DNA of 64,000 bases, taken from positions 31,306 through 95,305 of IMG/VR virus record IMGVR_UViG_3300022188_000008; one strand, given 5' to 3'. The notes under the pieces were generated by a model, which was not told where the DNA came from, searched no databases, and worked only from the letters and a program-made list of their open reading frames with translations. The DNA is from a virus. A program made the position numbers and the translations under genes. The stretch's first letter is position 1. Each line of letters opens with the position of its first letter. Below are positions 9,343-63,890 of this stretch, one piece after another.

Positions 9343-9343
9343 T

Positions 9344-9688: not shown

Positions 9689-9712
9689 AACTTCACCTCC
9701 TATTATTAATGT

Positions 9713-9994: not shown

Positions 9995-10028
9995 GATTTA
10001 CCCTCCTTAAATTCATAATAGTTAATAA

Positions 10029-10484: not shown

Positions 10485-10566
10485 GCTTTATATCCTCCTA
10501 TGTTTCGTAAATGGTTTGAATCATTAACAGTGTATAGTGTTTTTGTAATATTTACAGTAAATTAAA

Positions 10567-10593
10567 TGCCAGGTTGAAAAACCCAACCTGGCA
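10567..10593. terminator. Bidirectional-looking hairpin
   Basis: GCCAGGTT with AACCTGGC, perfect 8 bp around GAAAAACCC. On the minus strand it is followed by ATTTAATTT. It lies in the 117-nt gap between the genes at 10602 and 10484. Confidence 0.5.
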
Positions 10594-10601
10594 AAAAATG
10601 T

Positions 10602-18962: not shown

Positions 18963-19491
18963 ACAACGTATTATTGTTTGTGGCATCGACCCTGGTTTTG
19001 ATGGTGGTATTTCTGTAATATCTGAAACGCCAAGAAATAAACATAAAATAATTTATTCTTCTGTTATGCCTATTATCAAAGAGAAGAGCAGAAGGAAATT
19101 GGATTATCATAAATTAATTATGATTTTTAAAACATATTTACCAACTTTAACAGTTATAGAGAAAGCACAAACAATGCCTAAACAAGGTATAGCTTCTACA
19201 GGTAGATCTATGTATAATGCGGGGGTAATTCATGGTATTCTTTTAGGTCTTAGTCTTCCATTTATTAGAGTAAGACCACAAGAATGGAAAAAAGTTATGT
19301 TAAAAGGCACAAAGAAACAAAAAATAGATGCTATTGAAAAAGTTAGTTGCCTTTTTCCTGATTTATCATTAAAAAAATCCAAAAGAGCAAAAAAACCACA
19401 TGATGGGATTGCAGAGTCAGTCCTTATCGGGTTATATGGATTTACATGTTTAAATCAGGAAAGCCTAAATTATCACAACGAAAAATCCTAA
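18955..19491 (+). CDS. RuvC-like Holliday junction endonuclease
   Basis: 178 residues. RIIVCGIDPGFDGGISVIS at the N-terminus is the RuvC/RNase H-fold first aspartate motif. ILPTLTVIEKAQTMP is the second (Glu) motif, followed by GRSMYNAGVIHGILLGL and VRPQEWKK. The C-terminal KPHDGIAESVLIGLYG carries the last acidic residue with the D..A...A pattern. Such enzymes resolve branched DNA before packaging, which fits the location directly before terminase. Ribosome binding site AAGGAG. Confidence 0.88.
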   Translation: MIKQRIIVCGIDPGFDGGISVISETPRNKHKIIYSSVMPIIKEKSRRKLDYHKLIMIFKTYLPTLTVIEKAQTMPKQGIASTGRSMYNAGVIHGILLGLSLPFIRVRPQEWKKVMLKGTKKQKIDAIEKVSCLFPDLSLKKSKRAKKPHDGIAESVLIGLYGFTCLNQESLNYHNEKS

Positions 19492-28353: not shown

Positions 28354-29214
28354 ATGGCTTCAAAAAATACAAATAACTATTCCCTTGGAATGCCTCTATT
28401 GTACTTTTATAGTACTTCAGGGGCTTCGGGATTGACTATTCTTGAGAATGCGTATGCAGGTACTGGTACTTATAATGCTAAGTATTACTACCTTGGCAAT
28501 GCAGCGGATATGTCACTAACACTTGGTACAGATTCATTAGACCATTTTACAGTTACTGCTGGTAAAAAACAGAAAGATAAATCAATTATCATTGAGCAGA
28601 CAATTAGTCTTTCTATGACTTTTGATGAGTTTGATGCTGATAATATGAGAAGGTTTTTCTATGGTGCTAATCAGACTAAGACTGTAGCAGACGAGGATTC
28701 TGGTATTGTCCCAGATGGTACTGAGACTCATTTTGAGTTTACTTTGGATAATATTCCAGTATCTCCTACTACAGTTACAGTGACTGCTACAATTAGTTCT
28801 TCGGATGTTGATATGACTGATGACGGTGGTGGGACTCTTTCCCCTGCAAGTGGTAGTAGTACTGGGACTATTGATTATGGTTCAGGTACTATAGTGTTAG
28901 ATTATGAAAACCCACCTGATAATGGATCTAATATCACTGTGGATTATACCTGTATTGTAGGTATAACGGTATTCGATGAGAACGCAATTACTGCAGAAGG
29001 TGCTATGTTGATGGTATTCCCGACTACAGTTGGTAGGCAGTGGAAATATCATATTCCCAAATGTTCCATTAAGCCTTCAGGTGATCTTGGTTTTGGTGCT
29101 GAAGATTGGATGTCTGGTACTTTTGAGGTTGAAATTCTTAAAGATGAAACCTTTAGCCATACTTTTGATACTTCTGAAGTTGATTGCCCGTATGGCTACA
29201 TTGATTTCTTTTAA
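28354..29214 (+). CDS. Major tail (tube) protein with Ig-like insertion
   Basis: 286 residues; ACGGAGG upstream. N-terminal NYSLGMPLLYFYSTSGASG and central QTISLSMTFDEFDADNMRRFFYG followed by VGRQWKYHIPKCSIKPSGDLGFGAEDWMSGTFEVEILKD are typical for tail tube proteins. Residues 118-195 form a strand-rich insertion (TIDYGSGTIVLDYENPPDNG) of the Ig-like decoration kind. A terminator follows, consistent with high dosage. It assembles into the hollow tail tube. Confidence 0.82.
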   Translation: MASKNTNNYSLGMPLLYFYSTSGASGLTILENAYAGTGTYNAKYYYLGNAADMSLTLGTDSLDHFTVTAGKKQKDKSIIIEQTISLSMTFDEFDADNMRRFFYGANQTKTVADEDSGIVPDGTETHFEFTLDNIPVSPTTVTVTATISSSDVDMTDDGGGTLSPASGSSTGTIDYGSGTIVLDYENPPDNGSNITVDYTCIVGITVFDENAITAEGAMLMVFPTTVGRQWKYHIPKCSIKPSGDLGFGAEDWMSGTFEVEILKDETFSHTFDTSEVDCPYGYIDFF

Positions 29215-29673: not shown

Positions 29674-30089
29674 AAAAAGCACCTGGAGGTAAGAGAGAGC
29701 AATATACATTATTACTAACAGATATATTCCAGGTGCTGATATCAAACGGGCATTCCTACCATGATATTTTAAATACCTACTCTATTTCGCAAACCTATGC
29801 TTTTTATGATTCTATAATAAGGCACGAATCACGAAAAAAATATGATTTCTTTGCTACTTTAGCAACTACAATAGGTTCAGCGATATCATTACAATTAGCA
29901 TCTACAAGTAAAAAGGCTTTTAAGGAAGCTGCAAAAAGATGGGATAAATTAGTACGATTTTTTAATAAGCAGAGTATAGAGACAATAAAGAAGAAAGAGA
30001 AGAAAGAAGATAAAGCAAGGAAAGTGCTAAATCAATTATTATCTTTAGTTCCTGTAGTACCGGAGAGTAAGAAAAATGACGGTAGCTGA
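29649..30089 (+). CDS. Tail assembly chaperone, -1 frameshift extension
   Basis: Open in the -1 frame from 29634 to 30089; the part after slippage reads KYFSSLYLKKAPGGKREQYT and on through SNGHSYHDILNTYSISQTYAFYDS. No ribosome binding site or good start codon exists for independent translation (only a GTG at 29733 without Shine-Dalgarno). The product is expected as a fusion to the upstream 133-residue protein, as in lambda gpG-T, guiding tape measure assembly. Its end overlaps the tape measure start by 14 nt. Confidence 0.78.
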   Translation, partial: KYFSSLYLKKAPGGKREQYTLLLTDIFQVLISNGHSYHDILNTYSISQTYAFYDSIIRHESRKKYDFFATLATTIGSAISLQLASTSKKAFKEAAKRWDKLVRFFNKQSIETIKKKEKKEDKARKVLNQLLSLVPVVPESKKNDGS

Positions 30090-33000
30090 ACTCATAGCAA
30101 CATTAGCATTAGATTTTGAAGATCAGGCATCTGCAAAGGCTTCTAAAGCAGCTAGATCATTAGAAGCATCTCTGAGAGGCATAAATATAGAAGGCGCAAT
30201 CAAAGGCGATCCTTTCAGTAGAACCTATAAGTATGTCAATGCTTTTAGGGATCAATTTAGAGTGTTATCTAAAGAACTGACGGCAGGTTTAGATCTTAAG
30301 ATTAAAGGAAAGCAGCTCCCAGGCGTAAAAACCTTAATAAACAACATAGAAAAAATAGATAATAACTATGTAAGAGCAAAGACATCCTTAGATGTTTTTA
30401 ACAATGCTATAAAAGAAGCTACCTCATTATATGCTGATTTTGGACAATCAGGAGTTATGTCTAGCGAGGAGATAGATGAGGCCCTAGGAAGATTGGCATA
30501 TGATTTAAGAGAAGTAAAAGCTAACCTCTCTAGCGTCAGAATATCTCCAGAATTAAATAAAGAGATACGAGGATCTATTTTACCTGCTGTGGAAGAAATG
30601 ATAAAAGCATTTGATAAAGGAGGGGTTTCTTCTAAAACGGCCTTTGAAAAAGCAGTAGAAGGTATAAAAGATTTTGATTTGATAAATAAAGTAGCTCTTA
30701 CTGGTCTTCAGAAATTAATACAAGAGATTGATCTTCTTAATAAGAAAACTGAACAGTTTTATACAAAGAAGAATATAATGGCTACTCCTACTACACAATT
30801 AGGAGGGGCTTATACTGATATTCTGTCAAAGTTAGGGAAAACCCGTTCTGAATTATCTCAATTATTAGGGCTATTAAGTTCTGAATTTGAATATGTTCCA
30901 AGAATGGCAGAAAGAGTTCGATCTCAAGTAGCTGCTCTTGCGAAATCAGGGTATGACCTGAGTAACATAGAGGTAAGAAATATTAAGAAAGTAGTACAAT
31001 ATAGGGATATTGAACTACAATCTCTACAGGTAAAAGCCAATCTTTTAAGAGCAGGCTTAGTATCAGAACAAGAAGCAGTCAATATCATAAAACAGGCTTC
31101 AAATTATGCTCAGAAATATAATCTCGAATTAAAAGATGTATTAACTACCCTTAATATGTCTACAAAAGATTGGGCAACATTCTATATTGCTTCTCTTAAA
31201 TCAGATGCTGCTGTTCAGAAGATACGTACTGAGTTGGATACAGTTAACTTGTTGTTGAGAGAGGCTTGGACTCTTGGGAAATCAATTAATAGCGAGGTAT
31301 TGATAGCTCTTAGGAGAAGACAAAAAGAGTTGGAATTGGAAGCAAAACTGATTGAATTTGAAGATAAAAGAGTTTTTTCTGTAGCAGAAGTTGTTAAATA
31401 TTACGATTTAATAGTAGAAAAAGTCCGTGCTTCTCTAGGTATTGATATAAGTAAGAATCTTAAGCAAGCTATTTTTACTATTGCTGAGATTAATACACAA
31501 TTAGAGAGCCAATATAATATAGAATCTAATATTGCAAAATTAAGAAAAATAATTGCTGATTCATATATTAAAGATTTTGATATTATTAAATTAATAGAAA
31601 CATCAGGACTGACGAGAGAGAAGATAGAAGAATCTATAGCTATTGCAAGAGAACAATCCATAAAATCATTACAACTTCAATATGAACTTGGAATACTTAA
31701 TGAATCTTCTCAAGCTAAGTTACGAGATGAGTTACTACAACAAACTGAACTTACAAGAGAGCAGCAGGTTTTATTGGGAAAATTAAATACTGAACTAAGT
31801 ATAGAGAAATCTGCATATTCCAACTTATTAGCAGAACAGGAAAGATTAAATAATCTCCTAAAAGCGCAGAAACAATATCTCAGTAATCTCAAAGTAACAA
31901 GTGGAAGTAGTGAGGATATAAAAGATGCCGAAAGAATCCTTTCATTAATTAAGGAGAGGAAACGAGTTGTAGATGAGACCCTTTCAGTTACTCAACAATT
32001 AACTGATTTATCAGATAGGAATGTCAAAGATGTAGAAAGAGAAGTACGTTCACGAGTTGAGGCAGAAAAAGTACTACGCTCTATAACTAAAGAGAAGATA
32101 AACCAGCTCACTACAGATATAGAAAGTTTAAAATCAGTTTCTGAACTTAGAGCAAAAGAACAGCAGATATTAAATATCCTGAAAACAACTACTAAATTTG
32201 TAACTGCTAATGGTAAACTTACAAAGGAATGGAGGGATAGAACTAAGAAATTAGAAGAAACTCTAGGCATAGTTAGGGAAAAACTAAGAAAGATCGAAGC
32301 AGAAACATCAAGAACTCAGAAAACAATATCTGGTGCAAGAAGTATTCTTTCTGGTTTTTTTAATATTAGATTAGTAGGCGTTTTTATGCTCTATCGTACT
32401 TTATGGGAATTACGTAGAGCTTTCTCAGATTTAGCTAAGTCAGCTATGGAAGTCGAAGACAAAATGAAGAAATTTGAAACAATAACTCTTGCTACTACAG
32501 AGTCTGTTTCTTTAGCAACAGATACTGTAAAGGATCTATCTACTAAATATGCCTTAGCAGCTACAGATATTGCAGATGCACTTATTAAGATTGGACAAGC
32601 TGGGTATACTGCTCAAGAATCTATTTCTTTGATAAGTTCTACATCGCAATTAGCTGTAGCTACAGGTTCAGAATTAGGGGATACTGTAAATCTTATGTTA
32701 TCTGCAATGCAGGCATGGGATTTGGAAACCTCAAAATCTGTAGATATAGCTAATATTTTTACTTCTGCTATAAATAGTACACGACTAACTGTAGATAGAT
32801 TAAATACGTCTTTTAACTACATTACAGGTATTGCCCCGCAATTAAATATCACGTTGGAAGAAACTGCTGCTATTCTTGGTACAATGGCAGATGCTGGTAT
32901 TAGAGCTTCTACGTCTGGTACTTCTATGCGGGCAATGTTTGCTGAATTATTAAAGCCTTCCAATAGATTGATTGATACATTAAGTGATTTGGGATTAACA

Positions 33001-35856
33001 ATAGAAGATGTAGACCCACAATTGCACACAGTAACTGATATTTTAATTACCCTCAAAAAAGCAGGCTTTTCTGCTGCTGATGCTTTCAGAGCTTTTGGTA
33101 GAAGAGGGGCTTCTGGGATTGCTGTTTTAGTAGCTAATGCAGATAAAGTAGCACAATTGAGCACTTCTTTTAATAATTATGCTCGTGCTGCTTCTCTTGC
33201 AGCTATTGCGAGTGAGAGTTTACAAGCTAGATTAACTATCTTTTGGAATAGTTTAAGAGCCGAGGTAATGAATGTAGTCCCTGCCATAACCCATTTTATT
33301 GATGCTATTTCTGGATTAAGGGATATAAAAATTACTTCTACTGGTATAGAATTTACTAAGACTGTTGGAGAAATTGTACTTTCTTCAGAATCAGCATCCA
33401 AACGCTTAAATGATCTCACCCTTTCTATGCAGAGATTTAATGATGCTGTTGCAGAGGTACGAGGTTTAGAGCAGGCTGGATTGCTTATTCAGGCAATTTC
33501 TAAAGCATATAAAACAGGATTAGTACCTCTTGCTGAATATAATAAGTTGATGAAAGAATATAATGAAAGATTAGCAAAAGGTACTGATATCACGGATACT
33601 TTCAGGAAAGCTCAAGATCTTCTAAATGGCACTATAAAGCGCAATATAGAATTAGAAAAAGTTAGAAGAATAATAGAATTTACTGATGCTATTGAAAAGC
33701 AGGCCGCTGCGGAACGAAAAGTCAGAGAGGCATTTAGAGATCAAAATAAAGAAATAACTAGAGTATTGACTACGTGGCAAGATTATCAAAAAGCTGTATC
33801 TAAAACGTCTCCTTTAGAAGCATTAGGAGAAGTTGGTCTTGGGTTAACTCCGCAAATAGATGAACTGGAAAGGACTATTGCTAATGTACAGAAATTACTT
33901 GGTTCTCCTTTATCTTCAGAATGGTTGAAGTCTTTAAAATCTCAGAGTGAACAATTAACAGGAATTACAAAAGATGCAAGCAATCAGCTCTATAAGTTCA
34001 TTAAAGTAATTGAATTAGCAGGTCCTGAATTTGCAAAGAAATTAGTAACATCAGGTAAAGATATAGACGAGTACAGCAAATCCTTACAGAATTTTATAAA
34101 TATGCTTAAAAAGCAAGGTAGCTTAAAAGATATCTCACTTGTAGACACAAAAAATATAAGAGAATTAGCAAAATACCCTAAGTTATTTACCGAGTTAGCT
34201 ATACAGTCTGTAAGGACGTCTGAGGATATAGATGCTTTAAGAGCAGCATTTAAAGCTCTTATAGATGATGGAATATTACCTGTAACAGAAGGTGGAATAG
34301 TACAGGAATTTGTTAATAAACTTAATTCTTCTGATATACAGACTAAATCCTTATCAACATCTATTAATATTCTTCAGCAGCGATTTGATGATCTGTATAA
34401 AACACTCTCTAGAGCTACATCTAATTTCAAAGATACAGTTAAGCCTTTGCAAGAAGTTCAAACTATTACTCTTAAATATGCTCAGACTCTAGAAAGGTTA
34501 AATCTAGTACGAGAATTAGCCCATGCAGGAATTACTGATTATTCTAAGAAACTGTCTGAATTAACAAATGTTCAGAAAATACAAATAGATCAACAAAAAG
34601 CTCTTCAAGCTAAACAAACATATTTGATAGATAAGCAATCTATAACTACCGGATTGCAGCTATTAGAGCAGACTTATAAGAGGCAATTAGAATTAGCTAA
34701 AGGCAATGCAGATAAAATAAGACAGATTAATTCTTGGAGAGCTGAAAATGAAACCAGGCTATACTCCGATATGAGTGTAGCAGCTCTTAAATATAAAAAT
34801 ACAATAGATAGATTAGTTAAGGAAGAAACCTCTGCTCTTCAGAGACTCTATCAACAGTTAAATAATGTTAATACCCAGTTACAGCAAAATGAAATCTCTT
34901 TGGAATTATCTTTAAAGAATTTTGATGCCGCTGTTAAAACTAAATTAGAAAAGATGAGCGGCACTACTAAGAATACTTTTGATAGATTAAAGAAGGAAGC
35001 TAGAAGTATAAGCTCTCTTATAAGCGAGGCAAGACTTTATGCTGATGAGGCTAAAGGTAAAGTATACCTCCAACAGGCAGAGCAGAAACTAAATGCTCTT
35101 AAATCTGCATTTTTATCTACAAATAAACTAAGCGAAGACCAAGTACGTTCTTTATCTCATCGTATAAAGGCTCTTATGAAAGATCTTGCAGAAGTTAAGG
35201 ATTCTGTGCTTGAAGATCAAAAGACTACTTTAGAAGCTCAGATAAATATGATGCGTAAGTCTCTTGATTCCCTTGTTACAGAAATGAAATCCTCAATGGA
35301 TGCTGTTAGGAAAAGTCTACAAAAACAAGGAGAGCTGAAGATAAAGGATAATATTGATACTGAAATAGTACCTAGGTTTAATGACCTCATTGAGAAGATA
35401 ACAGACTCTAAACCTGAATTAAAAATAAAGCATAATTTAGGAGATGTTAAATCAGATTTGGAGGATATAAATGATTTATTAGATGATATTTCTCATAAAG
35501 GTAAAATTAATATTTCTGTATCAGGAGGTGGAGGTAAATCAATAGGTGGTTATATACCTGGTTATGGTGGTGGAGATATAGTTCCTACGTGGTTAGAGCC
35601 AGGAGAATTTGTTATTAGGAAGGAAGTTGTTAGGGATTTTGGGGTAGATTTCTTTAGAAATATTAATGAAGGGGTGGCTTTTAATACTTCATTTCCCAAA
35701 ATGCAATATGGGGGAATGATTCCAGAAGTAAAAGCTAAAGATATAGTTAATGTAAATCTTAATTTAGGTAGTTCACAATTTCCTTTGTTTGGAGAGAGGG
35801 AAGTTGTTGAGATGTTAGTGTCCAGACTTCAAAAAGAGAGGTTGATGTCGATATGA
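30076..35856 (+). CDS. Tail tape measure protein
   Basis: 1926 residues, the longest gene. Long coiled coils (residues 1-760 and 1080-1800) surround a more compact centre, residues about 765-1030 (VFMLYRTLWELRRAFSDLAKS ... ALAATDIADALIKIGQAGYTAQES ... DLETSKSVDIANIFTSAINS). The centre matches the TP901-type tape measure core, including a hydrophobic segment. The C-terminus has GGYIPGYGGGDIVPTWLEPGEFVIRKE, a familiar tape measure ending. Its length would predict a tail of very roughly 0.29 micrometre by the usual 0.15 nm per residue rule. Starts within the chaperone extension. Confidence 0.93.
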   Translation: MTVAELIATLALDFEDQASAKASKAARSLEASLRGINIEGAIKGDPFSRTYKYVNAFRDQFRVLSKELTAGLDLKIKGKQLPGVKTLINNIEKIDNNYVRAKTSLDVFNNAIKEATSLYADFGQSGVMSSEEIDEALGRLAYDLREVKANLSSVRISPELNKEIRGSILPAVEEMIKAFDKGGVSSKTAFEKAVEGIKDFDLINKVALTGLQKLIQEIDLLNKKTEQFYTKKNIMATPTTQLGGAYTDILSKLGKTRSELSQLLGLLSSEFEYVPRMAERVRSQVAALAKSGYDLSNIEVRNIKKVVQYRDIELQSLQVKANLLRAGLVSEQEAVNIIKQASNYAQKYNLELKDVLTTLNMSTKDWATFYIASLKSDAAVQKIRTELDTVNLLLREAWTLGKSINSEVLIALRRRQKELELEAKLIEFEDKRVFSVAEVVKYYDLIVEKVRASLGIDISKNLKQAIFTIAEINTQLESQYNIESNIAKLRKIIADSYIKDFDIIKLIETSGLTREKIEESIAIAREQSIKSLQLQYELGILNESSQAKLRDELLQQTELTREQQVLLGKLNTELSIEKSAYSNLLAEQERLNNLLKAQKQYLSNLKVTSGSSEDIKDAERILSLIKERKRVVDETLSVTQQLTDLSDRNVKDVEREVRSRVEAEKVLRSITKEKINQLTTDIESLKSVSELRAKEQQILNILKTTTKFVTANGKLTKEWRDRTKKLEETLGIVREKLRKIEAETSRTQKTISGARSILSGFFNIRLVGVFMLYRTLWELRRAFSDLAKSAMEVEDKMKKFETITLATTESVSLATDTVKDLSTKYALAATDIADALIKIGQAGYTAQESISLISSTSQLAVATGSELGDTVNLMLSAMQAWDLETSKSVDIANIFTSAINSTRLTVDRLNTSFNYITGIAPQLNITLEETAAILGTMADAGIRASTSGTSMRAMFAELLKPSNRLIDTLSDLGLTIEDVDPQLHTVTDILITLKKAGFSAADAFRAFGRRGASGIAVLVANADKVAQLSTSFNNYARAASLAAIASESLQARLTIFWNSLRAEVMNVVPAITHFIDAISGLRDIKITSTGIEFTKTVGEIVLSSESASKRLNDLTLSMQRFNDAVAEVRGLEQAGLLIQAISKAYKTGLVPLAEYNKLMKEYNERLAKGTDITDTFRKAQDLLNGTIKRNIELEKVRRIIEFTDAIEKQAAAERKVREAFRDQNKEITRVLTTWQDYQKAVSKTSPLEALGEVGLGLTPQIDELERTIANVQKLLGSPLSSEWLKSLKSQSEQLTGITKDASNQLYKFIKVIELAGPEFAKKLVTSGKDIDEYSKSLQNFINMLKKQGSLKDISLVDTKNIRELAKYPKLFTELAIQSVRTSEDIDALRAAFKALIDDGILPVTEGGIVQEFVNKLNSSDIQTKSLSTSINILQQRFDDLYKTLSRATSNFKDTVKPLQEVQTITLKYAQTLERLNLVRELAHAGITDYSKKLSELTNVQKIQIDQQKALQAKQTYLIDKQSITTGLQLLEQTYKRQLELAKGNADKIRQINSWRAENETRLYSDMSVAALKYKNTIDRLVKEETSALQRLYQQLNNVNTQLQQNEISLELSLKNFDAAVKTKLEKMSGTTKNTFDRLKKEARSISSLISEARLYADEAKGKVYLQQAEQKLNALKSAFLSTNKLSEDQVRSLSHRIKALMKDLAEVKDSVLEDQKTTLEAQINMMRKSLDSLVTEMKSSMDAVRKSLQKQGELKIKDNIDTEIVPRFNDLIEKITDSKPELKIKHNLGDVKSDLEDINDLLDDISHKGKINISVSGGGGKSIGGYIPGYGGGDIVPTWLEPGEFVIRKEVVRDFGVDFFRNINEGVAFNTSFPKMQYGGMIPEVKAKDIVNVNLNLGSSQFPLFGEREVVEMLVSRLQKERLMSI

Positions 35857-44730: not shown

Positions 44731-45213
44731 ATGAAAAAAGCATTATTAGGTATCGTGATTTTGTTATTATTTTCTATATCCCCATGTTTTGCCCTTCTTG
44801 GAAATTATACAATTGGTTCAGGAACATGGTCTCCTACCAATCCACAAGCTGGATTACATTATTATGGCAATAATAGATATAAACTCACACTTGAAGCTAC
44901 TTCTAATGGAGATGGAGACGCCTCCATCACTATCAGAGACCTGGGGATGCTGGACATTGCGGGGTACTCATGCATTACGGTGGAGCCAGATGGAACGGAC
45001 ATCCCCACGGACGGCTTTGACTTGAGCATTAAGGACGGCCTCGGGAGGGAGCTCATTACTGGTGGGCAAGGCACAAACCTGAGCAACAGCTCTGCAACAA
45101 GCATCTATCTGGATTGGACACATGTCTGGGACAGCATGACAATCTCCCTCTCAGGAATGGGAGACTCGAAGAAGGCAACTATTACGATTGTGTTTGATGT
45201 TTACTACCCGTAG
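44731..45213 (+). CDS. Secreted beta-sandwich protein, phage decoration-like; recombination junction inside
   Basis: 160 residues; AAAGGAGAGAG upstream. Signal peptide: MKKALLGIVILLLFSISPCFA with probable cleavage after CFA. The mature part (YKLTLEATSNGDGDASITIR ... DGFDLSIKDGLGRELITGGQG) resembles phage virion/decoration proteins of one beta-sandwich domain. The DNA is AT-rich up to about 44,905 and then abruptly GC-richer with different codon choice, so a recombination point probably lies inside the gene. A 9-bp hairpin (45212-45235) follows the stop. Confidence 0.65.
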   Translation: MKKALLGIVILLLFSISPCFALLGNYTIGSGTWSPTNPQAGLHYYGNNRYKLTLEATSNGDGDASITIRDLGMLDIAGYSCITVEPDGTDIPTDGFDLSIKDGLGRELITGGQGTNLSNSSATSIYLDWTHVWDSMTISLSGMGDSKKATITIVFDVYYP

Positions 45214-45235
45214 CAAATTGTTTGCTGACAATTTG
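45212..45235 (+). other. Hairpin between secreted-module genes
   Basis: GCAAATTGT TTGCTG ACAATTTGC, perfect 9-bp stem, no T run. It ends 17 nt before the next ATG; likely an mRNA-stability or weak attenuation element. Confidence 0.4.
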
Positions 45236-45251
45236 CTTGGTGGAGGCTTAG

Positions 45252-47045
45252 ATGAAGAGAACGTTTTTTCTCGTAACCTTGATGATGCTTTTGCTGTTGC
45301 CTGCGATGGGGTGGGCAGCAGACTGGTATGTCCGTCCTGCAGGAGGAGACTATGGCAATGAGGATGGCACAAGCTATGAGAACGCTTTTGATGGATTTTC
45401 CAATGTCTCTGGCCTTAGCAGTGGCGATACATTATGGGTTTGCGGAACACACAGAGAAACATTGACCATTAATTGGAGCAACGCAATAGTTCGACTGGAC
45501 TATCCATCAGATCCAGGGGTTATCTGTGGCTCAGATCGGATAGATGGTGATGACAGTGGTTGGTCAGGCCCAGATGCCAATGGTGAATACAGTATCTCAT
45601 TAAGCACTGAGTGCAATGTGGTAATCAAAGACGGAATAGTGATGTTGAAGGGTACTGTCGGTTCTCTAAGTCCGAATGAATGGGATTGGGATTCAAACAC
45701 ACTTTATATTGGTAGTGATCCTAGCGGGCACACCTTTGAAGTTGGACAACGAAACTTTCTTATACAGTTCCCTGATTCAGCTGTGTCTAATTTTACTATC
45801 ATAGGTGATGGAGAGCATAAACAGCTTTGTTACGCCAATCGCAATGCTATATCGGCGTCTTGGGATGGGAATACACAATCGTATGGGGACCTTACAGTAG
45901 AGAATATCTGGTTTGATGCCAATGCGAGCCAATGTATTCACTCAGACGGCTCGTATACCTTTGACACAGTGATAGTTCGTAACTGTAAGATAACTCAAAA
46001 CGGCGGTGAAGGTATTTACCTAAAAAATAATATCAACACTAAAGCAATTATTGAGAATAACATTATAGGCTCAGGAACATATGATAACTTTGGCTGGAAT
46101 GGAGGTGGTACAGCATATGACGGTGACGGTATCGACTTAGGACATGGTTACGAGATTACAATTCGCAACAATATTATTCAGAACATAAATGGCACAGGAA
46201 TTCTTGCACAGTCAGGAGATGCGCTAATTGAAGATAATACCATTATTGAGCCTGGGATTGACCGCACTACTAAGTGCGGAATATACATTGACCCGCAGGA
46301 AAGTACTGACGAGGTCATTGTAAGAAGAAATAGAATACTCATGAATTCAAGTAACGCAGACGGAATCCAAGCCAGAGCAGTAAGCGGTAATGAGATTCGA
46401 AAAGAGATATCGTACAACTTGGTAGTATTGCCGATGTCATCTGCAAAAGCATGTGTCACAAATCCAGTATACAACACGAGATATTTTAAGATTCTCAACA
46501 ACACTCTGATTGGCGGAACACATGGTGTTTATATGGATGGAGAGAATCCAATATCATGTGAAATTAAAAATAATATAATCAAAAACAGTACACATAATTT
46601 GTATTTTACTCAGTCTGGGTTATCTGGTATTCAGGTTACCCATAACGCTTTTTATCCAGTCGGTAGTTCCAACGACTTTTATGTTGCTGGTACTACTTAT
46701 ACCACATTGTCAGCGTTTGAGTCTGCAATTAGTACAGCATTAAACAATATGGATGATGATCCAAGGTTATTATCCACCTACCACCTCTCCCACAACTCCC
46801 CCTGCATCAACGCAGGAACAACTATCTCAGGCTTCTACGAGACAGCTCTAGACCTAGACAAGCAACCAATCATCGGAACGCCTGACATTGGATGTGACGA
46901 GAGGAAGGCATTGTGGTGGGATGGGAGGAGATGGCACATGCAGAAATTAATGGTTGAATACAAACCACACAATTCCAACGTGCAAGACGAAGGAACAAAC
47001 GACATTCTAGACGAGAGTGGCAGCAACATCTTGGATGAAAGCTAA
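45252..47045 (+). CDS. Secreted right-handed beta-helix (pectate-lyase-like) protein
   Basis: 597 residues. Signal peptide MKRTFFLVTLMMLLLLPAMGWA, then DWYVRPAGGDYGNEDGTSYE, the standard opening of beta-helix fibre proteins. Residues 160-480 contain successive turns (IENNIIGSG, ITIRNNIIQNINGTGIL, ALIEDNTIIEPG, VIVRRNRILM, FKILNNTLIGG, EIKNNIIKN). The C-terminus ends in a short repeat (NDILDESGSNILDES). It could be a surface polysaccharide-binding or -cleaving protein; no catalytic triad can be assigned by eye. GC-rich codon use relative to the tail genes. Confidence 0.72.
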   Translation: MKRTFFLVTLMMLLLLPAMGWAADWYVRPAGGDYGNEDGTSYENAFDGFSNVSGLSSGDTLWVCGTHRETLTINWSNAIVRLDYPSDPGVICGSDRIDGDDSGWSGPDANGEYSISLSTECNVVIKDGIVMLKGTVGSLSPNEWDWDSNTLYIGSDPSGHTFEVGQRNFLIQFPDSAVSNFTIIGDGEHKQLCYANRNAISASWDGNTQSYGDLTVENIWFDANASQCIHSDGSYTFDTVIVRNCKITQNGGEGIYLKNNINTKAIIENNIIGSGTYDNFGWNGGGTAYDGDGIDLGHGYEITIRNNIIQNINGTGILAQSGDALIEDNTIIEPGIDRTTKCGIYIDPQESTDEVIVRRNRILMNSSNADGIQARAVSGNEIRKEISYNLVVLPMSSAKACVTNPVYNTRYFKILNNTLIGGTHGVYMDGENPISCEIKNNIIKNSTHNLYFTQSGLSGIQVTHNAFYPVGSSNDFYVAGTTYTTLSAFESAISTALNNMDDDPRLLSTYHLSHNSPCINAGTTISGFYETALDLDKQPIIGTPDIGCDERKALWWDGRRWHMQKLMVEYKPHNSNVQDEGTNDILDESGSNILDES

Positions 47046-47057
47046 CAGGAGGTATAG

Positions 47058-48059
47058 ATGAAAAAGATATCTTGGATTTTAGTAGTCTTGTTATTTGTAG
47101 CGTCAGTTGTGCTCGCCGGCAAGATGTCAGATTACTCTGATTTGTCTGCGGGCAACATCGCTGACGGAGACATGTTTCTGCTTCGTGACGTGAGCGACAC
47201 AACGTTAGGTTCAACGGGCACACAGAAAGAATATAGTTGGGCTGCGATGAAAGCAGACCTATTCAGTGCTGGGTTTATGAAAGACTTGGTAGATGATACT
47301 AGCCCACAGCTTGGAGGGAACCTTGATAGCAATAACTTCAACGTTTACATAGGCGATGGTACCTACTCGTGGGATCATAGCCCTATACTTGGGTGTGAGG
47401 GAGTTGTTGAGATAGATGGAACACTCTATGCTGACGGCGGAATCCAGACAGGAGCCAGTGCTCAACCTGGAGTGACTGGGGATGACTCAGACACCACAGC
47501 TAGCCCTGATTGGAAGATTTATGGAGATGCTACAGATCCCACAGCAGGTAGCGAAGATGTTGACTTGTTTATCCAGACCTTGGTGGATGGATCAATGACT
47601 ACGTTGCTTCAGTTTGATGCTGATGGGAACATTGAGGTAGCTAAGGACATTAATCTTGCATCAGGCAAGAAGTACAAGATCAATGGTAGTCAGATCAGTT
47701 CTGATGACCTTTCTGACTCCACAACAATAAACACAAACCTTTTAGAATTTATAAACAAGGACTTGACTACGCTTCATAGTGGTAAGGATGAATGGGTTTA
47801 CATCCCTACTACTTGTTCTTGGACTAGTGTTCATGTTGGCTATGATGGTACGGTAACAGACCTAGTCTTTACAGTTTATAGCGCTGACAGCCCGTATGGA
47901 ACTGCTACCACCGTTGGAACTATTGATCCTGATAACTCTCCATCGGTATCAGGGTGGGGTAATATAACTGCGGGCAAATGGGTGAAGATGGAAGTGACAA
48001 CGGCAAGCACTGGCGATGCTACGGCATGTCAGGTTGCTTTTGTGCTGACTAATCAATAG
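47058..48059 (+). CDS. Tail-fibre-like protein with signal peptide
   Basis: 333 residues. Signal peptide MKKISWILVVLLFVASVVLA, then MSDYSDLSAGNIADGDMFLLRDVSD and LVDDTSPQLGGNLDSNNFNV. The latter motifs are typical of phage tail fibre and structural proteins, normally without signal peptides. A C-terminal beta sandwich (residues 235-333: KDEWVYIPTTCSWTSVHVGYDG) may bind ligand. This is the clearest case in the window of a fibre-type protein routed to secretion. GGAGG upstream. Confidence 0.65.
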   Translation: MKKISWILVVLLFVASVVLAGKMSDYSDLSAGNIADGDMFLLRDVSDTTLGSTGTQKEYSWAAMKADLFSAGFMKDLVDDTSPQLGGNLDSNNFNVYIGDGTYSWDHSPILGCEGVVEIDGTLYADGGIQTGASAQPGVTGDDSDTTASPDWKIYGDATDPTAGSEDVDLFIQTLVDGSMTTLLQFDADGNIEVAKDINLASGKKYKINGSQISSDDLSDSTTINTNLLEFINKDLTTLHSGKDEWVYIPTTCSWTSVHVGYDGTVTDLVFTVYSADSPYGTATTVGTIDPDNSPSVSGWGNITAGKWVKMEVTTASTGDATACQVAFVLTNQ

Positions 48060-48070
48060 TGAGGGAGAGT

Positions 48071-48814
48071 ATGAAGAAAGTAACATTAATTTTTGGTTTT
48101 ACGCTATGCCTTATCTTAAGTGCCGTAGTGGTGCTTAATGCGGGGTGGTGGGTTTATACTGTAACGGAGCCAGCTTCTAGCTCTTGTTCAACACCTTCTT
48201 ATGGGGATGAATTAAATGAGGGTTTTCTTGGCACTGGATATGAGAATACTTGGGCGGAAAGCGGCAGTTCAGCAACAATAGATGAAGATACCTCTCTTAG
48301 TGGTTCTCCGCCAACTGCATGTTGTAATGAAGGATTAGCCATAACACTAAGCGGAACGGGCACATCAAATACATATTGGGATAGAGGCAGTACAATTTCC
48401 TATTCGACATCTACAGACATAGTATTCTGGATATATTTTACTACATTGAATTTTTCAGATGACTATGAAGCTACCAATCTCGTTGAATGGAATAGCGCAA
48501 CTACACACTATGATGTTTCGAATTGTACAGGTTGGGTTGATGTTATGAAGACAAATACAGGTACATATGTGATGCGTGGTAGAGGTTCTACTTCTTCATC
48601 AAATATATCAATCACCACAGAAACCTGGTATAAAGTTAAATTGCATTTAGATTCGGTAGCGTCCGATTCATACTTACAGATTGATGACGGAACACAATAT
48701 TTTTTTACTAGGAAGGATGTAGACGGCAGGTACCTGTCCATTGGTACAAATGCTCTAGAAACCGGAGATGAATTGGCATATCAAATAGGATATATTTATG
48801 TTGATACACCATAA
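48071..48814 (+). CDS. Secreted beta-sandwich (concanavalin-like) protein
   Basis: 247 residues from MKKVTLIFGFTLCLILSAVV with GAGGGAGAGT upstream. Signal peptide ends near VLNA. The mature part (GDELNEGFLGTGYENTWAESGSSATIDEDTS ... DIVFWIYFTTLNFSDDYEATNLVEW) has the layout of a laminin-G/concanavalin-type domain found on phage fibres, probably for sugar binding. Overlaps the next gene by 17 nt. Confidence 0.62.
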   Translation: MKKVTLIFGFTLCLILSAVVVLNAGWWVYTVTEPASSSCSTPSYGDELNEGFLGTGYENTWAESGSSATIDEDTSLSGSPPTACCNEGLAITLSGTGTSNTYWDRGSTISYSTSTDIVFWIYFTTLNFSDDYEATNLVEWNSATTHYDVSNCTGWVDVMKTNTGTYVMRGRGSTSSSNISITTETWYKVKLHLDSVASDSYLQIDDGTQYFFTRKDVDGRYLSIGTNALETGDELAYQIGYIYVDTP

Positions 48815-50111
48815 AGATAGGATTTTATTAGTGCTTCTATTTGTTATACTAATCTTGGTACATACCCATGTATTGGCTTGGACCAAGAGTGGAGATAAAT
48901 ATTATACGGATGGTAGTCAATCAGATGTCCAATCAGCCATAGACGATTCTTCTGTAGGGGAGATAATTCATGTGCCAGGAGGCACATTCACATGGGATAG
49001 AGTATCTATATCTCATGAAATTGTCTTAGAGGGAGAGGGTGTAAATAGTACCACTATTCTTAACAGTCGTACTATCAGTTGTTCGGCTATGTTGCTGTGT
49101 AGCATTTCTACTGATACATCTAACTCTCTGCGCATAACAGGCTTTACATTTAAACCAGCACCGCCTGGCGGGTATTCACCTACACATATACAGATTAACG
49201 GGGATTCCGAGTTTAGAATTGACCACTGTGAATTTACTGGTGTAGATAATTCAGACGATATATGTAATGCAATAATAATTGTTGGTTACAATACGTATGG
49301 AGTCATAGATAGTAATATCTTCTATGACGCAACCAACGAAGTAATACAAGTCAAGGCTGATAACACCACATGGTCAGAGGATGACAAACTAGGAACAGAT
49401 GAGTTTGTATTTATAGAAGATAATATTTTTGATAGTAGTAGCGTTTCTATAGGCACACACGCAGTTACTTCTATTTATGGAGCCAGAGTATGTTTTCGTT
49501 ATAATACGTTATATGGACTTGACTGTGATGCACATGGCCATGGTTCTGAGGTAGGACATCAAGGAACTAGAGTGGTTGAGTACTACAAAAATAAATTGTA
49601 CACTGACGGTCGATGGACATCTGGAATGGTTATAAGGGGTGGTACTGGTGTTATATGGGGAAATGAGTTTTATGACCAAGGTACAGATCAGGGATGGAAT
49701 GACTGTGTGAAGTTAACTGAATATAGAGTTTCCAGAGATACTCCTAATGATGGTTGTTGCCCAATTGCAAGTGGTGGTGAAGGGTATCCGTGTTACGATC
49801 AAATAGGGCGAGGCAAAAATCAACAGAGTTCACCATTGTACATTTGGGGGAATATGCTGGATAGTGATGGAGATGGAATATTAGATAGCAATGCTAGTGT
49901 TAATGTTAGGACTATAACACCAGATGAATGTAATGCAGAACTTTGCACAGACTATATAAAAACTGTAGCCCACAATGGACAAATATTGCCTGATTATTAC
50001 ATTGATATTCAGAAGCCTGGATATTCACCATACACTTATCCTCACCCCTTAAGAGGATGGTTTAAAGGATTCAAAGGAATGACATTTTCAGGAGGTATCT
50101 CAACGCAATGA
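48798..50111 (+). CDS. Secreted beta-helix protein with C-terminal FSGGISTQ tag
   Basis: 437 residues. Basic start and a long hydrophobic stretch (RILLVLLFVILILVHTHVLA) form a signal peptide. Then YYTDGSQSDVQSAIDDSSVGEIIHVPGGTFTW begins a right-handed beta-helix with repeated turns (EFRIDHCEFTGV, YGVIDSNIFYDA, EFVFIEDNIFD). The C-terminus MTFSGGISTQ is almost repeated in 50756-52168, suggesting a shared sorting, capping or assembly tag. Confidence 0.65.
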   Translation: MLIHHKDRILLVLLFVILILVHTHVLAWTKSGDKYYTDGSQSDVQSAIDDSSVGEIIHVPGGTFTWDRVSISHEIVLEGEGVNSTTILNSRTISCSAMLLCSISTDTSNSLRITGFTFKPAPPGGYSPTHIQINGDSEFRIDHCEFTGVDNSDDICNAIIIVGYNTYGVIDSNIFYDATNEVIQVKADNTTWSEDDKLGTDEFVFIEDNIFDSSSVSIGTHAVTSIYGARVCFRYNTLYGLDCDAHGHGSEVGHQGTRVVEYYKNKLYTDGRWTSGMVIRGGTGVIWGNEFYDQGTDQGWNDCVKLTEYRVSRDTPNDGCCPIASGGEGYPCYDQIGRGKNQQSSPLYIWGNMLDSDGDGILDSNASVNVRTITPDECNAELCTDYIKTVAHNGQILPDYYIDIQKPGYSPYTYPHPLRGWFKGFKGMTFSGGISTQ

Positions 50112-50143
50112 AAAACAACAAGTATATATTTTGGAGGCATTTA

Positions 50144-50734
50144 ATGAAGAAATGGCTAACTTTAACATTGCTTTTGTTCTGCATCCCTGCTCTAGTGTGG
50201 GGATGGGGGACGGTGATTATTAGTGGGAATGCGAGTAGTGAAACTATTTGCAATACATTAGCCCTTAGCTATGAATCATCTGGTGATGATGATTGGACAT
50301 TCGGATACGGTTTTACGGATTGTGTAGCAACAGATTTTACGACCACAAATCAGCTTTCAGTATGTAAAGTAGCTGTTTATATCCGTAAAACTGGAACACT
50401 ATCTGGAAATGTAAGGGTGGGCTTTCAATCTGATGCATCTGGTAGCCCGTCAGGGATATGGTTAGCTGTAAGCGAGTGGGTATCGTGGAGTGATATTGGC
50501 ACTACATACGATTGGGTAAATTTCACTTTTCCTACGAATGTATCTTTATCCGCTTCTACTACTTATTGGTTAGTTATAGATACGGATACGGAGTTAAGTG
50601 CAGACCAAGCCTATTGGTACCGAAACAAAACAAGTGGTCCTGGGAGTAATGCTGTGTGTGGTGAGATAGATTGTGACTGTTCATCTTGGAATACCGCCAG
50701 TGGTAGGACTGCATATTATAGGATTTATGAATAA
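50144..50734 (+). CDS. Secreted beta-sandwich protein
   Basis: 196 residues from MKKWLTLTLLLFCIPALVWG; TTGGAGGCATTTA precedes this ATG (an in-frame ATG at 50108 has no ribosome binding site). The mature part contains NTLALSYESSGDDDWTFGYGF, KVAVYIRKTGTLSGNVRVGF and TYWLVIDTDTELSADQAYWY, a layout of choice-of-anchor or carbohydrate-binding-type sandwiches. Ends within the 29-bp duplication. Confidence 0.62.
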   Translation: MKKWLTLTLLLFCIPALVWGWGTVIISGNASSETICNTLALSYESSGDDDWTFGYGFTDCVATDFTTTNQLSVCKVAVYIRKTGTLSGNVRVGFQSDASGSPSGIWLAVSEWVSWSDIGTTYDWVNFTFPTNVSLSASTTYWLVIDTDTELSADQAYWYRNKTSGPGSNAVCGEIDCDCSSWNTASGRTAYYRIYE

Positions 50735-50765
50735 AAACTGCATATTATAGGATTTATGAATAAAA
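50708..50765. repeat. 29-bp perfect tandem duplication
   Basis: The unit ACTGCATATTATAGGATTTA followed by TGAATAAAA occurs at 50708-50736 and again at 50737-50765. The first copy encodes the end and stop of the upstream gene; the second provides the ribosome binding site (TAGGA) and the ATG of the downstream gene. Confidence 0.95.
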
Positions 50766-52168
50766 TGAGAAACCTTAGAATTTTATTTTTCATTATGACA
50801 TGGATCATTTTTGTGCTCTTACATAGTTTGAGCCTAGCTGCTTGTCACTATGTACGTCCTCCAGGCGGTGATTACGGCAACGAGGACGGAACCGACTGGA
50901 ATAATGCGTATGATGGCTTGCCCACAACACTGGTAAGGGGTGATGTTTACTATGTTGCTGCTGGAGTTTACAATAACGGTTGGTATTTGGACGACCCAGA
51001 ATCCGGAACATCTGTCATAACTATAAAAAAGGCCAATGCTTCTGAGTGTGCAAGCGTTCAAGGTTGGCTGTCTGAATTTGAGACTGGCCAGGTAGTGGTT
51101 TATAATGGCTCTGATACAACCTACGGAGCAGCTATTACAATAACCCGTGGATATTATATTATCGACGGCGTTACGGGAACGGGTACCTCCGGTTATGGCA
51201 TCAAACTCCGATATGCTCACTTAAATCAAGACAATACAGGTATCCTTATCAGGGATAATGCCGTATCAAGTTTGACCGTGAGACATGTTGAGTTTGACAT
51301 GCCAGGAAGTTCTTATAATTACGCCCAGTGGGGAATATATCGTGTATCAGGTTCGTTTTCAAATGCGCATGTCGATCATTGCTACGCACACAATTTTAAT
51401 GTTTTTATGAAAGATGATGGTGGAGGAGGGACAATCATTGAAAACTGCTATTTCAAAAACCAATGGTCATCTTCCAACCATCACGGAGAATTAATTTCTA
51501 TTGTCTGCACAGATGGCCTGATCTTTCGGTACAATATTGTCGAAAATGCTGTAAACGGAACTGGGGGTATAATTGTTTTAGGTGATTATGAAACATACGA
51601 ATGTAGTGTCGATGACGTGGAAATTTATGGAAATGTGTTTTTTGATTGTTCTGGTGGTGGGAATGGAATAATAGGAACGGGAAGTAGTTACTGCTCACTA
51701 GGTGCCAAAAACTGGAAAATTTACAATAACACTATTGTTGATTCAGGTTCAGTGTTTGTTTATTTCCCGATGCGAGAGTGTGCAGCTGGAGGTGAACCTG
51801 CAAGTAATTTTCTTATTAAGAACAATCTGATATTCAATAGCAGCGCCTATATAGATGCGAATTCAGCAACCGTAGACCATAATTATTTCAATTCTGAAAC
51901 AAGTGTGGGACCAGATGGAAAGGGGACAAACCAAGTTAATTCTACCCAAACATCAGCACAAACTTTTGTAGACTATGAGAATGATAGATTTGAGTTAAAG
52001 AGTGGATCTGATGCAATAGATACAGGCGTTGATCTTGGGACACCGTATAATATTGATATACTAAGTGTTTCTCGACCTCAAGGCTCAGCTTGGGACATCG
52101 GGGCTTATGAATATGTATGGGGAAATTTCCTTGGCATTTCATTTTCAGGAGGCATCTCAACACAATAG
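50756..52168 (+). CDS. Secreted beta-helix protein with C-terminal FSGGISTQ tag
   Basis: 470 residues. N-terminal signal-like stretch (ILFFIMTWIIFVLLHSLSLA) followed by CHYVRPPGGDYGNEDGTDWN, closely similar to the opening of 45252-47045. Beta-helix turns include IIENCYFKNQ, LIFRYNIVENA, VEIYGNVFFDC, WKIYNNTIVD. A cysteine directly after SLAA gives a possible lipobox (SLAAC), so it might be lipid-anchored. Ends ISFSGGISTQ. The start lies in the second copy of the 29-bp duplication. Confidence 0.65.
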   Translation: MNKMRNLRILFFIMTWIIFVLLHSLSLAACHYVRPPGGDYGNEDGTDWNNAYDGLPTTLVRGDVYYVAAGVYNNGWYLDDPESGTSVITIKKANASECASVQGWLSEFETGQVVVYNGSDTTYGAAITITRGYYIIDGVTGTGTSGYGIKLRYAHLNQDNTGILIRDNAVSSLTVRHVEFDMPGSSYNYAQWGIYRVSGSFSNAHVDHCYAHNFNVFMKDDGGGGTIIENCYFKNQWSSSNHHGELISIVCTDGLIFRYNIVENAVNGTGGIIVLGDYETYECSVDDVEIYGNVFFDCSGGGNGIIGTGSSYCSLGAKNWKIYNNTIVDSGSVFVYFPMRECAAGGEPASNFLIKNNLIFNSSAYIDANSATVDHNYFNSETSVGPDGKGTNQVNSTQTSAQTFVDYENDRFELKSGSDAIDTGVDLGTPYNIDILSVSRPQGSAWDIGAYEYVWGNFLGISFSGGISTQ

Positions 52169-52200: not shown

Positions 52201-52557
52201 ATGAGAAAGCTAAGTAAGACATTATTAACCATCATGGCTATGGTAGCAATCGCAGTGGCCTGCACAACTACCAATACAGGATACAGGTTCGATTGGGATA
52301 AGCTACCTCCCAAGACACGGGCTACGCTGGCGATGGACATCTACAACCAGGAATATCAGAACTATAAGCTCCAAGCCTTAGCCCCAGACCTGACAAATCA
52401 TGAAAGGGATGTTCTGAGGAAGAAGAAGGAGGCACTTATCCAACTACACGATGTTATCCAGCTTTATAACGGGTACATCATGAAGGGAGAGGTTCCACCG
52501 GACTTACTGGAAAAGAAACTGGTAGAAGCGTTGAATGCAATCTTAGATGCAGTATAG
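52201..52557 (+). CDS. Small lipoprotein
   Basis: 118 residues; GAAGGAGGAAACA upstream. Signal peptide MRKLSKTLLTIMAMVAIAVAC with lipobox-like AVAC, so Cys21 would be lipidated. The mature part is helical (LPPKTRATLAMDIYNQEYQNYKLQ; HERDVLRKKKEALIQLHDVI). Position upstream of the lysis genes makes an outer-membrane spanin-like or accessory lipoprotein possible; its partner is not obvious. Confidence 0.65.
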   Translation: MRKLSKTLLTIMAMVAIAVACTTTNTGYRFDWDKLPPKTRATLAMDIYNQEYQNYKLQALAPDLTNHERDVLRKKKEALIQLHDVIQLYNGYIMKGEVPPDLLEKKLVEALNAILDAV

Positions 52558-54466: not shown

Positions 54467-54819
54467 AACTGATCGTTGAAGAGTGGAACGACAACACTGG
54501 GTTTGAGTATCGAGGGAGTATCCCCAATCCTCAATTTGATGCTCAAGTGTGGTTGGATAACGAGCTTTCAATAATAGTTAGGGCACTGTTCGAAGGGGAG
54601 GTAGTTGCAGCACTCCAGTTCAACAATTCTTTTGACCACGGTGATGAAATATTGGTTTATGGCCGACTTGTGAAGCCGAAACCAATTTATGAAACATATG
54701 CCAGGTGGAGAATTGCAAAGATGAAACAACCAACTTCCAAGACACAAATTAAGAGTCACTCTTTCTTTAAAGGGGAGCATTTTCTTTTTAGGATAATAAG
54801 ATGGTTTGCAAGGAACTGA
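54463..54819 (+). CDS. Hypothetical protein
   Basis: 118 residues: MKLIVEEWNDNTGFEYRGSI; ALFEGEVVAALQFNNSFDHGDEILVYGRLV. Strand-rich first 80 residues, basic C-terminus (FFKGEHFLFRIIRWFARN). AAGAGGGAG upstream. Not recognised. Confidence 0.55.
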   Translation: MKLIVEEWNDNTGFEYRGSIPNPQFDAQVWLDNELSIIVRALFEGEVVAALQFNNSFDHGDEILVYGRLVKPKPIYETYARWRIAKMKQPTSKTQIKSHSFFKGEHFLFRIIRWFARN

Positions 54820-55349
54820 AGACAACAAACTTTGAACGGCTAAAACCTAAGATGACAACAGGCATGTGTATCCTTTGGAGGGGGAACTTCCTTATCTCGG
54901 AGGTAATACGACAGTGGACTGAATACAGTCATGTATCCTTAATTGTCAGATTCAATAGATACCCCCTACTCAAGGATAAGGTCTTCCTCATTGAGGCGTA
55001 TGAGCACGGCTTGGAGTTCAACGATTTGGAAGAGAGACTTGAGGAAGAGCCAGGGAGGGTTGACCTCTTCGTTCCGTATGACCTCGACAAGTGGAAAGCA
55101 CTGACCATCTTCAAGAACGCATTCCTCTTCTTGGCACACAATACTGGCTACGATTATGCAGGACTCTTCAAGAGTGCATTTACTCACCCAGATAGAGACC
55201 CAACCAGGTTCTTCTGCTCGGAGTTCGTGGATTATATCTGGATAACCAATGGGTTGAAACGCAAAGTCAACAACACATTGGCGGCCTGGCCTGGAGACAT
55301 TCCTAAGTGGTGGGATGGGCAGCTTTATACGATTAAGGAGGATGGATGA
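54801..55349 (+). CDS. YiiX-like (permuted NlpC/P60) cysteine hydrolase
   Basis: 182 residues. TGMCILWRGNFLISEVIRQWTEYSHVSLIVRF gives the conserved histidine (YSHVSLIV), an acidic FLIEAYEHGLEF follows, and FFCSEFVDYIW (about residue 145) gives the catalytic cysteine. This His-before-Cys order is that of the circularly permuted YiiX/YebB-like papain-fold hydrolases. Possible substrates are peptidoglycan peptides or lipid-linked amides. Position in the lysis cassette suggests a part in envelope breakdown, not proven. Confidence 0.72.
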   Translation: MVCKELKTTNFERLKPKMTTGMCILWRGNFLISEVIRQWTEYSHVSLIVRFNRYPLLKDKVFLIEAYEHGLEFNDLEERLEEEPGRVDLFVPYDLDKWKALTIFKNAFLFLAHNTGYDYAGLFKSAFTHPDRDPTRFFCSEFVDYIWITNGLKRKVNNTLAAWPGDIPKWWDGQLYTIKEDG

Positions 55350-63179: not shown

Positions 63180-63555
63180 ATTTATAACCTCTTCTTGCTA
63201 AGCTCCTGCTTAGATATGTCTGAGATATTCCTAATTCTGATGATATTTCTTTTATGGTCTTCCCCTTGTGCATCTTTATTATCTTCTGAATTCCACCTTG
63301 TTCTTTTACAATTCTATCAAACATAGAATCTTTAGAAGCCCAACCTTTATGAATAAATTTGACGCCGAGCCTTTTAAGAGTTACATATATTGTCTGGGAG
63401 TGATACCCCCACTTTTTTGCCATTATCATAGTATTTGTCTCATAATATTCTTTCTTGAGAGCTTCTACTGTTTTATCCCAATCCCAGTTGTTTACCTGCA
63501 AAGCTAGCTCTAAGAAAGATCCTGCTTGTATTCGTCTTCCTTTAATGATACGCAT
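63139..63555 (-). CDS. Double helix-turn-helix DNA-binding protein (paralogue B)
   Basis: 138 residues. HTH-like KKEYYETNTMIMAKKWGYHSQTIYVTLKRLGV and KTIKEISSELGISQTYLSRSLARRGYKY. Tandem duplicate of 62751-63179. Its start lies within the SpeD-like gene (46-nt overlap). A transcription-regulator role is likely. Confidence 0.72.
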   Translation of the reverse strand: MRIIKGRRIQAGSFLELALQVNNWDWDKTVEALKKEYYETNTMIMAKKWGYHSQTIYVTLKRLGVKFIHKGWASKDSMFDRIVKEQGGIQKIIKMHKGKTIKEISSELGISQTYLSRSLARRGYKYDRKKKEWHKNSL

Positions 63556-63890
63556 AATTCTGTGACCTCAGCATCAAACCAATTTTCAACAGCAGAAATT
63601 ACTGCGGGTTTAGAGAATTTCTTACAAGATGTAATATCTATGTAGAATTCTCCTGTTTCAGGCCATGTATGTAGTTGTGCTCCACTTTCCAAGTAAACAC
63701 ATCCTATCGAAATACCTGGAGCTTTACCATTCCAACTAGCCCCTCCAATTAAATGTGCTGTTCTCCCTATTTCTGTAACATCTAATGTTTTCACTAAATA
63801 ATCCATAAATCTACTACAATAATTCAAATCACTGAGAAGTTTAGAGTGCTTTGTAGTACAATTAAGTGGAAGCCTGTACAACTCAACCAT
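63510..63890 (-). CDS. S-adenosylmethionine decarboxylase-like protein (SpeD family), altered active-site loop
   Basis: 126 residues. LESGAQLHTWPETGEFYIDITSC (residues 67-89) aligns with the self-processing motif ESH(L/I)(T/S)IHTWPE of bacterial SpeD. The cleavage pair Glu68-Ser69, the proton-donor His74 and Cys89 keep the exact spacing of the characterised enzyme (S, +5 H, +20 C). The three residues after the serine are Gly-Ala-Gln rather than His-(Leu/Ile)-(Thr/Ser). So pyruvoyl formation could be intact while substrate choice differs (other phage and bacterial SpeD homologues decarboxylate arginine or ornithine). Probable role in polyamine supply for DNA packing or in SAM consumption. Good GAGGGAAGAGAAA upstream. 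Confidence 0.82.
   Translation of the reverse strand: MVELYRLPLNCTTKHSKLLSDLNYCSRFMDYLVKTLDVTEIGRTAHLIGGASWNGKAPGISIGCVYLESGAQLHTWPETGEFYIDITSCKKFSKPAVISAVENWFDAEVTELCVSLKEDEYKQDLS

Follow-up and report, generated by a model that had tools for sequence, protein, structure and literature searches.

The window analysed here, 64,000 nucleotides long, corresponds to positions 31306-95305 of a 95,305-base virus record of IMG/VR (IMGVR_UViG_3300022188_000008, labelled G000), and family scans of its late region indicate a phage of the siphovirus type (long-tailed phage). Directly after the tail genes, and on the same strand as these and the lysis genes, lies a cassette of seven genes (44731-52168) whose products all begin with a predicted Sec-type signal sequence and include fibre and beta-helix proteins (Table 1). 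The cassette closes the tail module and precedes the lysis genes, as expected for phage tail fibres. It is followed by the gene of a putative lipoprotein (52201), by genes of small membrane proteins and by that of a cell-wall hydrolase (56099, PF07486).

Signal sequences and bodies of the cassette proteins

Signal sequences were identified with a rule-based caller. To pass it, a protein must have a basic n-region and, close to its start, a hydrophobic core free of charged residues, together with either a lipobox or a small-residue cleavage site. The caller was positive for 7/7 cassette genes, as the initial annotation had claimed, and for 52201 (lipoprotein type), against 3 of the 124 other open reading frames (ORFs) of the 95-kb record (hypergeometric P = 9e-11 for the enrichment in the cassette). 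Two of these three are reverse-strand ORFs within coding regions and probably spurious, while the third encodes a membrane protein (58053). The cassette signals have the n-, h- and c-regions of classical signal peptides, and their cleavage sites consist of small residues. Shuffled N-termini passed the caller in 0.5-10% of cases and internal segments never; with 38 proteins from a 50-kb stretch of E. coli, 13/13 exported, 0/20 cytosolic and 3/5 inner-membrane proteins were called. The weakness of the caller towards inner-membrane proteins is countered by the fact that none of the eight proteins (the seven and 52201) has a second hydrophobic segment, the sole one being N-terminal. Judged from sequence, export of the cassette proteins is highly probable, whatever their later role; actual translocation, cleavage, formation of disulphides and attachment to virions are inferred.

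The seven ORFs are present where the initial annotation had placed them and are tightly packed, with plausible or good Shine-Dalgarno sequences 5' of several starts; only the start of the fourth gene needs correction, being more likely at 48071 (MKKVTL...) than at the GTG at 48059. The description of all seven products as fibre or beta-helix proteins could be retained for 45252, 48798 and 50756 (beta-helix type) and for 47058 (fibre), and had to be given up for 44731 (a small beta-sandwich with weak matches to carbohydrate-binding modules), 50108 (choice-of-anchor R) and 48071 (no assigned fold).

The product of 45252 matches PF13229 (E 4e-14), and the N-terminal region of 50756 is similar to it; 50756 also matches NF041518 (E 4.5e-10) and 50108 matches NF041539 (E 2e-8), both above the NCBIfam cut-off. 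The protein encoded by 48798 is 28% identical (E 5e-20) to a signal-bearing PF13229 protein from an apparent prophage of the phylum Desulfobacterota, and its AlphaFold model is of low confidence (pLDDT 35). For 44731, AlphaFold2 yielded a beta-sandwich model (pLDDT 70), whose best fold matches in the PDB, weak ones (TM 0.45-0.5), include carbohydrate-binding modules and a Haloferax virus turret; these resemblances of the modelled fold are a hint only. The product of 48071 has no Pfam or PHROG match. Gene 47058, which is preceded by a strong Shine-Dalgarno sequence, carries the fibre motif VDDTSPQLGGNLD, common to at least 99 complete viral fibre ORFs.

A fixed regular expression for the fibre N-terminal module proved too strict. 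An iterated profile placed such a module in 47058 from residue 22, which a held-out profile did not uphold. The held-out profile confirmed a signal directly 5' of the module in L177 (E about 1e-6) and, weakly, in L182, two of the viral loci described below; since only these were confirmed, the fibre claim for 47058 is limited to the exact VDDT motif.

No sorting or anchor signal follows the choice-of-anchor domains: 50108 ends with YYRIYE and 50756 with FSGGISTQ, without a C-terminal hydrophobic segment. The products of 48798 and 50756 end alike, with FSGGISTQ (50079-50111 and 52136-52168), and in 48798 the codons of this stretch include the AGGAGG Shine-Dalgarno sequence of the overlapping next gene. 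Sequence searches of the PDB with three cassette members, searches of isolate-phage proteins with 45252 and 47058, and pattern-based searches of viral contigs for relatives of the latter two gave no match.

Table 1. The signal-bearing cassette, the gene that follows it, and the late genes upstream (positions in the window; a slash marks the predicted cleavage point)
Feature	Position	Strand	Length (aa)	Remarks
Gene 1	44731..45213	+	160	Signal MKKALLGIVILLLFSISPCFA by rule, then small beta-sandwich, possibly carbohydrate-binding
Gene 2	45252..47045	+	597	Signal MKRTFFLVTLMMLLLLPAMGWA, then YVRPAGGDYGNEDGT and right-handed beta-helix
Gene 3	47058..48059	+	333	Signal MKKISWILVVLLFVASVVLA by rule, tail-fibre-type body with LVDDTSPQLGGNLD
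Gene 4	48071..48814	+	247	Signal MKKVTLIFGFTLCLILSAVVVLNA by rule from the 48071 start; lectin-like by eye only
Gene 5	48798..50111	+	437	Signal MLIHHKDRILLVLLFVILILVHTHVLA by rule, beta-helix-type body, 12 Cys
Gene 6	50108..50734	+	208	Signal ending VWG by rule, choice-of-anchor R domain, 6 Cys
Gene 7	50756..52168	+	470	Signal ending LSLA/A or lipobox LAA/C by rule, YVRPPGGDYGNEDGT, beta-helix-type body, choice-of-anchor Q domain
Following gene	52201..52557	+	118	Putative lipoprotein, signal ending AVA/C by rule
Large terminase	19446-20999			Family scan
Portal	21005-22591			Family scan
Protease/major head protein	23914-24885			Family scan
Major tail protein	28354-29214			Family scan
Tape measure	30076-35856			Family scan
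Further tail proteins	up to 44669			Family scan

Comparison with other phages and with bacteria

A close relative, G001 (IMGVR_UViG_3300021467_000006), was identified through its large terminase (TerL), which is 95% identical to that of G000. It has a five-gene cassette at the same place; four of the five genes pass the caller, and the fifth has a hydrophobic start without a clean cleavage site. The mature parts of gene 1 are 90% identical in the two phages and the signals agree in only 8/21 residues, so that the signal appears constrained in character and not in sequence. Between the two copies of gene 2, signal (16/21) and C-terminal region are retained and the middle is swapped, with 36% identity over the rest, while the two versions of gene 4 are 31% identical. 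The fibre cassette has diverged or been swapped despite the nearly identical TerL, as receptor-binding genes do. A signal-bearing fibre of G001 has modules in common with annotated tail fibres of isolates; tail-fibre modules were found in this protein and, as the motif, in 47058, and fibre identity is supported for these two.

To judge how unusual such signals are, IMG/VR was scanned for VDDTxPQLGG[ND]LD, which gave at least 99 complete fibre ORFs, dominated by a few fibre types. Only 1 of 99 among the matches listed has a signal, in agreement with the initial view that signals are abnormal for phage fibres; the one that does, L103, is among three signal genes in a row, in the neighbourhood of the genes for portal and major head protein. 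None of three isolate fibres sharing modules with signal-bearing fibres has a signal, and L004, a viral, signal-free counterpart of gene 2, starts with MSTWYVRPSGG, at the point where the mature part of the window protein begins.

The cassette proteins are also rich in cysteine. Their mature parts contain 20.2 Cys per 1000 residues, versus 4.4 in the other structural proteins of G000; pooled over seven phages the values are 14.1 versus 4.1, with L139 as an exception (Fisher P 4e-20, indicative only as residues are not independent). Signal-free fibres with the VDDT motif contain 2.3 per 1000. Part of the excess may stem from the beta-helix fold, since L004, a beta-helix protein without a signal, contains 7 Cys among its 496 residues. 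Even numbers of cysteines (16/27) gave no clear signal.

Signal-bearing fibres were found on about 20 other viral contigs and in one apparent Desulfobacterota prophage, in runs of up to seven genes. Among the viral relatives of the G001 fibre, 9/10 complete ORFs have signals, and among relatives of L144 and L142, themselves two of these loci, this is the case for 12/19 distinct loci (14 with an alternative start); these fractions are enriched by choice, because the queries were signal-bearing, and the scan peptides were taken from the bodies. L142 has seven consecutive signal genes and a lipoprotein nearby. A phage context was confirmed for L103, L139, L145, L163, L172, L175, L177 and L182 and for the records of L144, L148 and L142, and includes portal, head or terminase genes of several families; the trait therefore crosses lineages. 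A terminase profile search was uninformative, as it missed even G000 and G001.

The apparent prophage is situated on contig 28 of G115, a genome from the phylum of Desulfosarcina cetonica. Beside ordinary chromosomal genes, this stretch encodes a signal-bearing fibre with PHROG tail-fibre matches, a signal-bearing beta-helix relative of 48798, and a tail-collar/fibre protein that lacks a signal. It appears to be a prophage at a contig end, and suggests a Desulfobacterota host for the phage of the window. Chromosomal signal-bearing proteins with fibre-like modules also occur in genomes of this phylum (L202:3423-5081, L206:4211-5965, L207:3012-4139), and are possible exchange partners of the phage fibres. 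At another locus, L001, we observed a RecA gene with an intein (8609-10885, minus strand; PF00154 and PF14890), whose Walker A motif is seemingly interrupted, and a DUF2828/DUF7788 protein (1333-2787, minus strand), TROVE/vWA-like by eye.

As for the surroundings of the cassette, 52201 is the eighth consecutive signal-bearing gene. Its membership in the cassette is uncertain; the lipoprotein is possibly a spanin or an exclusion lipoprotein, and no counterpart was seen in G001. Between 44000 and 57000 the G+C content steps up at gene 1, from about 0.32 to values of 0.39-0.44 that extend through the lysis genes, and the same step is present in G001 (0.315 to 0.429). A YiiX-like permuted papain-fold protein (54801-55349, plus strand; phrog_1128, weak Peptidase_C92) is encoded near the lysis genes; in an unrelated phage, another lies downstream of the signal-bearing cassette (L144:9945-10478). 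The phage also encodes an S-adenosylmethionine decarboxylase (63510-63890, minus strand; PF02675, E 8e-11).

Possible sites of action

The reading that we favour, with a probability of about 0.4, is that the cassette encodes appendages of a long-tailed phage which are exported by Sec, used outside the cytoplasm and most likely captured by virions at lysis. Late in infection, fibre, beta-helix and lectin-like proteins would be synthesized with cleavable signal peptides; the host Sec system would carry them over the inner membrane, the signal would be removed, and the proteins would fold in the periplasm, probably with disulphides in the Cys-rich members. Progeny virions would then pick them up as adsorption appendages once the inner membrane fails at lysis. 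As far as sequence features go, this reading is supported by the signals, the late-region position, the fibre bodies and the recurrence of the same design in unrelated phages, where it adjoins portal, head or terminase genes. It is favoured because of the late position, the fibre modules and the swapping, and because no other fibre was recognized in G000 among the tail genes scanned. Several points weigh against it. No tail-attachment domain was identified in the cassette proteins, whose presence on virions is a prediction from sequence. To our knowledge, virion assembly is cytoplasmic in all model tailed phages, so that attachment of the appendages must wait until lysis. Moreover, the signal-bearing proteins of the apparent Desulfobacterota prophage are accompanied by an ordinary fibre/collar protein without a signal, and choice-of-anchor domains usually occur in bacterial surface proteins.

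The strongest alternative, and a serious rival, is that the proteins are exported without becoming part of the virion. They could act on the surface or surroundings of the infected cell, blocking or trimming receptors and surface glycans against superinfection or re-adsorption of progeny, or be released as glycan binders or lyases. This possibility, which we hold slightly less probable than the favoured reading, agrees with the export signals in 7/7 genes, with the beta-helix, carbohydrate-binding-like and choice-of-anchor bodies, with the chromosomal signal-bearing proteins of Desulfobacterota genomes and with a prophage having fibre proteins of both kinds. However, it is receptor-binding parts of the virion that typically carry tail-fibre modules and are rapidly swapped, G000 has no other recognized fibre, and neither an anchor nor an outer-membrane export signal was found in the cassette proteins, so that in a diderm host they would not leave the periplasm before lysis. 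Of the four roles initially proposed, three (late decoration of particles, masking of receptors and remodelling of surface polysaccharides) cannot be told apart by sequence.

The fourth, a lysogenic surface layer, proved the weakest. A lysogenic-conversion (moron) cassette, providing adhesins or a surface layer from the prophage, might be expected from the bacterial-type domains and from a G+C content that in both phages exceeds the tail-gene value (0.42 versus 0.32); it is improbable, however, because the cassette is packed tightly between tail and lysis genes on one strand, the lysis genes share the higher G+C content, no terminator-like site is present between 44669 and 44731, at the junction with the tail genes, and promoter-like sites at the cassette do not exceed chance level. 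No integrase turned up either, although no search was aimed at integrases. Even less probable, in our opinion, is that the N-termini stay uncleaved and serve virion proteins as membrane anchors or docking helices. The caller can indeed confuse a signal with an N-terminal anchor, as its inner-membrane calls show, but the regions and cleavage sites are classical, a docking element would be conserved and not reduced to 8/21 identity beside a 90% identical body, the signal-free homologue L004 begins at the mature N-terminus, and the proteins are enriched in cysteine.

Relation to known systems and significance

The cassette resembles the VDDTxPQLGG-type tail fibres of tailed phages (P2-like, cyanophage, pelagiphage), with which it shares the motif, the modules and a location behind the tail genes. 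It differs from them in that all its members have a signal and much more cysteine, whereas 98/99 such fibres among the matches listed, and the three isolate fibres, are signal-free. Because its proteins carry signals, the cassette is classed as a variant of tail-fibre/appendage genes and not as ordinary fibres. Bacterial secreted beta-helix, choice-of-anchor and tail-fibre-domain proteins likewise combine a signal peptide with such modules, but the cassette is a run of seven genes in a phage late region, without a C-terminal anchor or sorting signal.

Llp of phage T5 is a superinfection-exclusion lipoprotein, and the coat proteins of filamentous phages are also Sec-exported. Lys of fOg44, cited in PMC8878798, is a signal-bearing phage endolysin exported by the host Sec system. 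The cassette is like these phage products in the predicted transport across the inner membrane by host Sec; unlike a lysin, a single exclusion protein or inoviral coats, it is a multi-gene fibre set of a tailed phage. No earlier description of such cassettes was found in the literature searched, which excluded preprints and most subscription journals.

In one paper (PMC6199706), the lack of a signal peptide counts in favour of a phage origin for variable proteins; the cassette and its relatives suggest that this rule fails in whole phage groups. If the proteins are on virions, they would imply an extracytoplasmic assembly step, which is not known from any model tailed phage; otherwise, phages would use sets of several secreted proteins on the surface of the dying cell. 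Our data suggest that in some tailed phages a part of the equipment for attachment to cells is made ready outside the cytoplasm. More tentatively, many uncultivated long- and short-tailed phages may have a Sec-dependent branch of assembly, in which receptor-binding appendages are exported, matured in the periplasm and mounted on virions only at lysis. If this is true, such phages would keep adsorption gear and heads in separate compartments until release.
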